This document shows positions 43,464-44,920 of a stretch of 45,907 nucleotides of DNA, piece after piece; position 1 is the stretch's first letter, and every line of letters starts with the position of its first letter. This stretch comes from an uncultured Bacteroidales bacterium (GTDB taxonomy: Bacteria > Bacteroidota > Bacteroidia > Bacteroidales > UBA932), in contig CAMVGM010000016.1 of NCBI GenBank assembly GCA_947167015.1, forward strand, positions 1-45,907. Reading direction: 5' to 3'. A program made the position numbers and the translations under genes. Under the pieces are notes generated by a model. It saw only the letters and a program-made list of their open reading frames with translations. It did no database searches and had not been told where the DNA came from.

Positions 43464-43471
43464 TATTTTTG
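43464..43471 (+). promoter_or_regulatory. Possible -7 box for the ATPase
   Basis: TATTTTTG is a full TAnnTTTG match 50 bases before the ATPase start. If transcription begins near 43477, the leader would consist almost only of the palindrome at 43485-43523. No TTTG lies at the -33 distance. Confidence 0.45.
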
Positions 43472-43484
43472 GGAGATTCTGCCG

Positions 43485-43523
43485 ATATTGCGAAAAAATT
43501 CGGAACGAAAATTTTCGCAATAT
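43485..43523. repeat. Left palindromic repeat bounding the ATPase gene
   Basis: Outer arms ATATTGCGAAAA (43485-43496) and TTTTCGCAATAT (43512-43523) are perfect complements. An inner stem TTCG (43499-43502) / CGAA (43506-43509) has a GAA loop, and AA faces AA between the stems. The last two bases of the right arm are the A and T of the ATPase start codon. The 35-base core (43487-43521) recurs as a direct repeat at 44586-44620 with three differences. Confidence 0.85.
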
Positions 43524-44583
43524 GGATAATCCATTCAAATTCGGAACTGTTGTTGACGGCAAATATTTCACGGATAGGAAGGAAGAAAGGGCATATCTTG
43601 CCCAGATTCTGGACAGCCCTAACCATGCTGTGCTGATCAGCCCCAGACGCTTTGGAAAGAGTTCTTTGGTGAAGGAAGTGCTCAATGGGCAGAAGCGGGA
43701 AGTCATCTTCGTGAACCTGCAAGCCATAACCAGAGTGCATAAACTGGCAGAGGCGTTATACCGGCAGTTTTTTGCTTCGCGTCCCCTGGAAAAGGCCAAA
43801 CATTATTTGTCAAGATTGAGGGTTGCACCAACCGTTTCCTACAACCCGCAAACCGGGGCCCCGGAGTTTTCGCTGCAACCCACGTCTGACAAGCAGGTAA
43901 TCCTGGAAGATGCCTTCAGCGTCCTGGAAAAAGCTGGGGAGAAGAAGCGCCTTATTATTGTATTGGATGAGTTTCCCGAGATTCTCGAGATTGACAAAAG
44001 CTTGGACAAGATGCTTCGCGCCATCATGCAGGAGCAGAAGAATATCAATTATATCTTGATGGGAAGCCAAGAAGATATGATGAAAAAAATCTTCCTAAGA
44101 AAGAAATCCCCCTTTTACCACTTCGGAAGCATTATCCATTTGGACAGGATTCCCGAATCCGACTTCGGACAATATATCGAAGAGCGGCTTCCCGTCAATT
44201 ATCAGGGCCGGGGTGTTACGGAGGAGATACTTTCTTTTACATCCTGTCATCCCTATTATACCCAACAACTCGCCTTTCAAGTATGGTTTAATCTACAGCA
44301 AGGGGCAGAAGTATCATCAGTGGTTTCAACTGCCATTGAGCAAATCGTCCGGGCGCATGATTTTGACTATTCCCGCCTATGGGAATCTATGAACCGGACA
44401 AACCGCTTGGTTTTGTTGAAATTGGCCACAAGTACCACTCCGCCCATGGAGAATCCGGAATTGCCGTCTAGTACGATATACAGCGCATTAAAACGGCTGG
44501 TCTGCGCCGGAATCCTGATTAAGAATGGGAAGTATGTCTATGATGACCCCTTCTTCAGAATTTGGGTGAGTAGTATTATCTAA
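43522..44583 (+). CDS. AAA-type ATP-binding protein bounded by palindromic repeats
   Basis: The 353-residue cytoplasmic protein belongs to the archaeal-type/AAA ATPases common in Bacteroidota. It opens with the usual NPFKFGTVVDGKYFTDR. The Walker A region is LISPRRFGKSSLV (GKS at 45-47) and Walker B is RLIIVLDEFPEI (Asp149-Glu150), followed by a sensor-like YILMGSQED. The C-terminal part (about 230-353) looks like a winged-helix region (SSTIYSALKRLVCAGILIKN). Cellular role is not known for most such proteins; P-loop and winged helix suggest nucleic-acid or signalling functions. It is visibly more AT-rich than its neighbours, lies alone, and is flanked on both sides by the same hairpin repeat, which suggests acquisition as a unit. 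Confidence 0.92.
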   Translation: MDNPFKFGTVVDGKYFTDRKEERAYLAQILDSPNHAVLISPRRFGKSSLVKEVLNGQKREVIFVNLQAITRVHKLAEALYRQFFASRPLEKAKHYLSRLRVAPTVSYNPQTGAPEFSLQPTSDKQVILEDAFSVLEKAGEKKRLIIVLDEFPEILEIDKSLDKMLRAIMQEQKNINYILMGSQEDMMKKIFLRKKSPFYHFGSIIHLDRIPESDFGQYIEERLPVNYQGRGVTEEILSFTSCHPYYTQQLAFQVWFNLQQGAEVSSVVSTAIEQIVRAHDFDYSRLWESMNRTNRLVLLKLATSTTPPMENPELPSSTIYSALKRLVCAGILIKNGKYVYDDPFFRIWVSSII

Positions 44584-44585
44584 CC

Positions 44586-44620
44586 ATTGCGAAAAATCTC
44601 GGAACGAAAAATTTCGCAAT
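44586..44620. repeat. Right palindromic repeat bounding the ATPase gene
   Basis: ATTGCGAAA (44586-44594) and TTTCGCAAT (44612-44620) are complementary arms around CTCGGAACGAAAAA-like sequence. It matches the left repeat in 32 of 35 bases in the same orientation and begins two bases after the ATPase stop codon. It may also act as the 3' hairpin of the transcript. Confidence 0.85.
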
Positions 44621-44635: not shown

Positions 44636-44920
44636 TCATTGGCCATTTGGTATCACTGCAATATTGGAAAGGCTCCGGACCCCCGCCGTCGGCGGCAGGA
44701 TGGCTCCGAGCCGATGCTCCCAGAGGCCCGTGCCAAGCAGGAAGGAACCGTAGGCGGCGAAAGTGCTGATTACGGAAGGGTCGGCATAGCGATGCATGAA
44801 CTATCGGGCGGTGGTCTCGGACCAGATGCGCGTCCGGGGTTGGGCAAACAAAGGGGACTGACACAGCATCATGGCCAACGCCAGGATGCCCAGGAGGTAG
44901 CTTTTGGGTTGCTTTTCTAC
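44636..44920 (-). pseudogene. Decayed secreted-protein gene divergent from GH28
   Basis: From 44920 the minus strand reads EKQPKSYLLGILALAMMLCQ and SPLFAQPRTRIWSETTAR, a good signal peptide and mature start, then TAG at 44801-44803. The same frame continues FMHRYADPSVISTFAAYG and ends at a TGA at 44636. There is no usual start codon: GTA stands where ATG is expected, right after a TATATTTG box. The W-S-x-x-x-A-x-x-F-M pattern faintly recalls the N-terminus of GH105 rhamnogalacturonyl hydrolases, which would suit a pectin locus, but similarity stops soon after. It is most likely the broken 5' end of a lost gene. Confidence 0.4.

Follow-up and report, generated by a model that had tools for sequence, protein, structure and literature searches.

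A likely mobile one-gene cassette in Bacteroidales: an AAA+ ATPase gene between two 35-bp double-palindrome boxes

Insertion of restriction-modification genes with long target duplication was reportedly first described in an original paper by Nobusato et al. in 2000. Restriction-modification systems between long target duplications of variable length, without a transposase, are reported in two papers (PMC3031569, PMC4978471). A third describes RAYTs as HUH-type tyrosine transposases between two inverted REPs, which are usually abundant (PMC2817692), and in a fourth, DUF1703 proteins combine a PF01637-like AAA+ domain with a PD-(D/E)XK nuclease and carry the Walker A motif RPRRFGKS (PMC1913061). 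Here we describe an AAA+ ATPase gene between two short palindromic boxes at the right end of a 45,907-nt stretch of DNA (the window) from an uncultured Bacteroidales bacterium (GenBank assembly GCA_947167015.1, contig CAMVGM010000016.1, C16 in our numbering). The assembly, called the focal genome below, comprises 2.46 Mb in 108 contigs and is 78% complete. A search of open-licence PMC literature found nothing on this ATPase gene together with its boxes, and no function for these ATPases.

We conclude that positions 43487-44620 are likely a mobile one-gene cassette, in which an AAA+ ATPase between two 35-bp double-palindrome boxes would regulate itself and would travel with no recombinase of its own. 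The cassette is likely mobile because its relatives sit at unrelated loci, homology between copies ends at the outer ends of the boxes, empty counterparts with a single box exist, and long duplications flank some copies. The anatomy is that of the window itself; it was in relatives that we observed changes of locus, sites without the gene, replacement of the cassette alone, and duplications on either side of it. The parts of the cassette are as follows (L and G below number loci and genomes).

43464..43471, + strand: candidate promoter -7 element TATTTTTG, read from the sequence; fits TAnnTTTG
43487..43521, + strand: left box, tandem 12-bp palindromes CGAAAAAATTCG and CGAAAATTTTCG, 15 bp between centres, immediately before the ATG; predicted operator and unit end
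43522..44583, + strand: AAA+ ATPase gene, 353 amino acids, PF01637/AAA_14, with a predicted C-terminal winged helix
44395..44544, + strand: predicted winged-helix codons (about residues 292-341), from model secondary structure and fold comparison
44586..44620, + strand: right box, in direct orientation, 32/35 identical to the left box; predicted other unit end

The pattern TAnnTTTG is what we take to be the Bacteroidetes -7 promoter pattern. As the first-pass annotation of this DNA had it, the boxes are direct repeats that bracket the ATPase open reading frame (ORF) and mismatch at 3 of 35 positions; compared as inverted repeats, they are 78% identical over 36 nt. The last base of the left box directly precedes the ATG (43522), and the right box starts 2 bases past the TAA that ends at 44583. 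Each box had also been called a hairpin; it is indeed palindromic, but is better described as two 12-bp palindromes in tandem, with a 3-bp gap and a centre-to-centre distance of 15 bp, than as a plain hairpin. The gene is, as claimed, more AT-rich than its surroundings (GC content of 45.7% for the cassette and 60.2% for the window), and no further + strand ORF of at least 80 amino acids is fully contained in the cassette, although minus-strand frames of 86-144 amino acids overlap it. The window contains no third box (at most 3 mismatches to the consensus of both), nor do 100 dinucleotide shuffles, and at up to 3 mismatches no copies beyond the two were found in the 2.46 Mb of the 78% complete focal genome. 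To the right of the cassette, positions 44706-44770 recur in four other genomes of the same genus with 88-91% identity over 44-65 bp; because of this recurrence, the segment looks like a dispersed repeat or a gene remnant.

Relatives of the ATPase are present in 89 of the 99 genomes of the focal taxonomic family, often in multiple copies each. As a close set we used the best 80 of 549 loci from a scan of species genomes (46-83% identical), which together with the focal locus make 81; here and below, related loci enter the counts separately. In 80 of these 81 loci the gene is preceded by a box at a distance of no more than 130 nt, with 59 of 86 upstream boxes ending 3-5 nt ahead of the ATG, and TAnnTTTG is found within 60 nt of the ATG in 66/81 loci as against 4/80 control windows. 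A second box (27-bp core) is present 3-30 nt past the stop codon in 18/81, and just 10 more box matches occur across the remaining 502,689 bases. Whether the right copy is compared with the gene's own or with a shuffled box (18/79 and 40/234, respectively) is uninformative for the close loci, because their boxes are all alike. The close loci are labelled nearly all as Bacteroidales or subgroups, and Hoylesella and Phocaeicola genomes have the gene plus box. The boxed gene also occurs in two assemblies labelled Lentisphaeria and Victivallales (L138, L141), either through inter-phylum transfer or through a binning error.

For 50 of the 80 close loci, we searched the corresponding 49 genomes with a strict box pattern. 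It matched in 48 of the 49, and the reversed pattern gave one match overall. The first-pass annotation had held that a palindrome widespread and unlinked to the ATPase would speak against a cassette; the distribution is the opposite, as 66 of 75 distinct sites are at an intact close-family ATPase, 3 are by decayed remnants and 6 stand apart. Sixty-four of the sites lie within the retrieved close loci. The other 11, examined separately, comprise intact ATPases at L241 and L246, decayed remnants at L240, L244 and L245, and the six apart from either (L242, L243, L247-L250), among which L242 has a distant paralogue downstream. The boxes in L243, L247, L248, L249 and L250 are intact and intergenic, with no ATPase remnant within 900 nt; such solo boxes may mark places of a former insertion, serve as targets, or act as operators for other genes. 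That the box is a common genomic repeat was rejected, with two copies in the focal genome and sites tied to the ATPase. Cargo of a phage or plasmid is likewise not supported, since no relative was confirmed in viral contigs (phage records were not searched) and a distant-mode search gave no match in plasmids.

In the wider family, 111 of 112 loci could be oriented (L016, broken and with no usable start codon, was left out), and the box sequence varies among paralogues, even inside one genome. Strong cases of tandem palindromes with 15-bp spacing were found upstream of 20/111 genes and downstream of 1/108, the controls giving 0/111 in coding sequence, 1/108 further upstream and 0/111 after shuffling; right copies of a gene's own box were found at 2/106 loci. 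These paralogue-specific palindromes near the promoter would represent an unusual operator layout for the whole ATPase family.

The boxes accompany family members at different loci, as the first-pass annotation had proposed to check. We compared 83 locus pairs whose cassettes are at least 75% identical and whose flanks are long enough: in 61 of them the two flanks both differ, in 13 one flank is shared, and in 9 both are. Two loci of the focal genus, L304 and L307, carry the full box-ORF-box unit elsewhere and match the window only over 43487-44620 (73%) and 43485-44620 (70%), respectively; the right box is the exact outer limit of homology for both. L306 and L308, of the same genus, carry the gene with its left box but have no right box that matches. 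Exchange in place was seen as well. At a locus termed A, G177 and G208 have common flanks (left bins 84-96%, right bins 90-100%) with cassette bins of only 81-93%, compared with cassette bins of 90-100% for the control pair G177-G225. The trees disagree, the cassette tree pairing G177 with G225 and the flank tree pairing it with G208, and the replacement at locus A is confined to the cassette. L188 is like L180 on its upstream side and like L185 on its downstream side, which may reflect recombination at this gene or misassembly of the contig.

Empty sites were compared within one genus, in which 26 genomes were searched. Locus A, set by its right flank, is filled in six species, G177, G208 and G225 having a different left flank there. 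Another two species, G187 and G192, hold the unit at locus B, where it resembles that of locus A only between the boxes. In G214 and G223 the flanks of locus A are joined with a single box between them, and in G177, G208 and G225 the flanks of locus B are joined with one partly decayed box. The single-box empty sites that the earlier annotation suggested looking for thus exist at two loci of relatives, and none was found for the focal locus. The simplest reading of the empty site in G223 is a loss that left one box, because its sister G194 is filled (right flank 98% identical) and the clade is mostly filled. G103 has the site of L304 without cassette and without box. Near the focal cassette, the left neighbour has orthologues in G106 and G113; synteny with these two genomes ends after 42795 and 42777, respectively, and they give no precise empty focal site.

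With the boxes masked, we compared the left with the right flank of each locus, using partner shuffles as the control. Direct repeats between the flanks were found in 14 of 84 usable close loci and in 0 in each of five shuffles. The duplications, 24-234 bp long overall, occur in several copies without a right box; clear ones measure 127 (L146), 90 (L151), 68 (L178), 66 (L195), 56 (L156), 53 (L179), 51 (L154), 49 (L182) and 45 bp (L157). In 8 of 10 cases inspected, the right repeat copy starts at most 26 nt past the stop codon. The duplicated piece is promoter-like in L195 and resembles the start of the next gene in L179. Weak cases among the 14 are L166 and L177, where the copies are distant and may be dispersed repeats, and L199, which involves neighbouring paralogues; L014 and L201 are one locus. 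The gene beginning on the right of L304 is by eye a UvrD/PcrA-like helicase, and about 50 bp of it recur in decayed form on the left side (score 19, maximum 15 in 500 shuffles). The wider family has flanking repeats at 6/102 loci, including L010, compared with 1, 0 and 0 in shuffles; in L010 (G000:C3), where the focal genome carries its second gene of this family, a 29-bp hairpin-like direct repeat stands on each side of the gene, starting 5 nt past the stop on the right. At the focal locus, the box itself is the sole duplication seen. The proposal of a minimal cassette exchanged at its boxes is supported by the checks that came with it; box exchange is not the whole story, because a second box is present in only 18/81 and copies without it also relocate, some between long target duplications.

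Direct repeats flank 34/177 ATPase genes and 11/203 other ORFs, 4 of the latter being the ATPase cassette itself (L253, L256, L304, L315), which leaves 7/199. Repeats starting within about 26 nt past the stop were found at 29/177 ATPase genes, box copies included, and at 3/199 other ORFs; the Fisher p of 1e-7 is too small because related loci are not independent. Four of the seven control ORFs are related ATPases or a PD-(D/E)XK gene (L169, L149, L131, L166), that of L169 being another family ATPase; that of L178 has no Pfam match, and those of L139 and L157 were not scanned. In L149, an ATPase_2 gene with a sub-threshold DUF234 match (556-1983) has a different palindromic repeat on both sides, AAAAGTGTCCATA...TATGGACACTTTT on the right, where the copy sits a few bases past its stop. 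A PDDEXK_2 'nuclease family transposase' gene in L166 (772-1674) lies between promoter-like 35-bp direct repeats, the right one 4 nt past the stop. An AAA_14 and DUF4143 ATPase gene in L131 (4519-5739) has a 25-bp direct repeat on each side; other nomadic ATPase families may therefore share this mobility.

The focal protein passes Pfam ATPase_2 (PF01637; whole-protein score 37.7 bits, cut-off 33.2) and also AAA_14 (36.7, cut-off 27). Pfam and NCBIfam scans recognised only ATPase families in it and no nuclease, transposase or recombinase domain, nor an HUH/Y1 tyrosine transposase; PADLOC gave weak partial matches to two candidate families. A sequence search of the PDB with the protein returned nothing significant (best E 0.62). 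Fold comparison placed 2qen and 2fna as the best full-length matches, followed by DNA-bound Orc1/Cdc6, and on this comparison residues of about 292-341 are predicted to be a winged helix. The predicted structure has C-terminal helices at 292-303 and 316-328 and strands at 332-334 and 338-340, and in the model the protein ends right past the winged helix.

From the sequence and the protein model we infer that the box by the ATG is a promoter-operator to which the ATPase of the cassette binds through its C-terminal winged helix. Such self-binding and autoregulation are predicted because the box is fixed at the promoter and ATG and the fold is Orc1-like; regulation would then travel with the gene wherever it is inserted. 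New copies would arise as proposed for restriction-modification genes, through an insertion that duplicates a long target stretch, and the right junction would fall at the stop codon or shortly past it. If that stretch is a box, the box-ORF-box form would result, which might then move as a block, as L304 suggests. Recombination between the two direct boxes would delete the gene and leave one box, or exchange alleles. Since neither a nuclease nor a recombinase is recognised in the cassette, the DNA would be cut and joined by the host, by another element, or through an ATPase activity hidden from sequence. More tentatively, and on balance doubtfully, this large family of Bacteroidales ATPase genes could be one-gene mobile elements of a new, recombinase-free class, in which the AAA+/winged-helix protein would recognise its own 15-bp-period boxes and itself direct insertion beside boxes or at new sites with long target duplications, the operator doubling as the element end. 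If these ATPases are one-gene nomads, their high number would be explained.

A number of observations weigh against a self-regulated mobile cassette. Movement itself was not observed, joined empty flanks of the focal locus were not found in 151 genomes of the same genus (cassettes lie elsewhere in them), and the empty sites of relatives can be read as losses only. The right box is missing in 63 of the 81 close loci, five or six boxes have no ATPase beside them and some may serve other genes, and the 7/199 other ORFs with flanking repeats come from the same loci. Most of the genomes are metagenome assemblies. Two tests of coevolution between protein and box, moreover, did not confirm binding. 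When protein columns were ranked by their mutual information with box class, residue 334 came first (K/R versus Y), a signal confounded by two clades. In a Mantel-type test (109 genes, 5743 pairs), the AAA+ domain gave a partial correlation of 0.125 (permutation p 0.005) and the winged helix one of 0.038 (p 0.045); contrary to expectation, the box sequence tracks the winged helix no better than the AAA+ domain.

Some of these points would fit a box that is only an autoregulatory operator, the gene spreading passively by ordinary horizontal transfer and homologous recombination and the right copies and repeats being by-products of local duplication. The position fixed to promoter and ATG, the upstream bias of 15-bp-period boxes in the wider family with its rare right copies (20/111, 1/108 and 2/106, above), and the 63 close loci without a right box all favour such an operator. 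Homology that stops at the outer box ends, a right copy close to the stop codon in 18 loci, and the excess of near-stop repeats at ATPase genes over other ORFs argue against it, and we regard it as rather unlikely. It is improbable that the gene is a passenger moved in trans, with a separate transposase or PD-(D/E)XK nuclease cutting at or near the boxes and the ATPase acting as target selector or partner like TnsC or MuB: AAA+ folds match broadly, so that the match to TnsC is not specific, and the target duplications vary in length.

The boxes could also act as RNA hairpins, a 5' structure plus a terminator or 3' stabiliser, an idea close to that of the first-pass annotation, in which the same RNA structure caps both transcript ends. 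The focal boxes do fold (-12.0 and -9.3 kcal/mol) and flank the ORF at both ends; the idea is nevertheless not supported, because the hairpin is weak in boxes of the TTACG class (median -5.7, n=30, versus -10.4 for the TTGCG class, n=51) and the downstream copy is absent for those same 63 genes, and we consider it very improbable. Misjoining of repeated genes in metagenome assemblies, which make up most of the set, might create false new loci or empty sites, and the mixed flanks of L188 are a possible misjoin; empty sites, however, recur at two loci in several genomes, and the named Hoylesella and Phocaeicola genomes have the gene plus box, which makes an artefact scarcely credible. A mobile cassette remains the reading that we prefer.

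Among known systems, an integron gene cassette is alike in pairing one gene with a palindrome, a likeness of outline alone. Insertion sequences and transposons have their own transposase or recombinase domain, and no such domain is among the families matched by the focal protein. RAYTs and their REPs share with our cassette the transposon-like outline of one gene between short palindromes that are found elsewhere too; they differ in that the focal unit encodes an AAA+ ATPase, has direct repeats, and has two box copies in the focal genome. The archaeal-type AAA+ ATPases 2qen (PAB2304) and 2fna (SSO1545) share the fold of AAA+ plus winged helix, with 16-17% identity to the focal protein in the aligned part. 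The focal Walker A motif, SPRRFGKS (its lysine is K46), resembles the RPRRFGKS given for DUF1703, although, unlike DUF1703, the focal protein has no recognised nuclease domain. The cassette differs from the restriction-modification systems in being a single ATPase gene, with no methylase or endonuclease, and in carrying its own palindromic promoter box, in some copies at both ends. It resembles them as a transposase-less gene between long, variable target duplications: in relatives such duplications flank 14/84 loci, some of them weak cases, and insert-free targets are found in G103 for L304 and in G214 and G223 for locus A.
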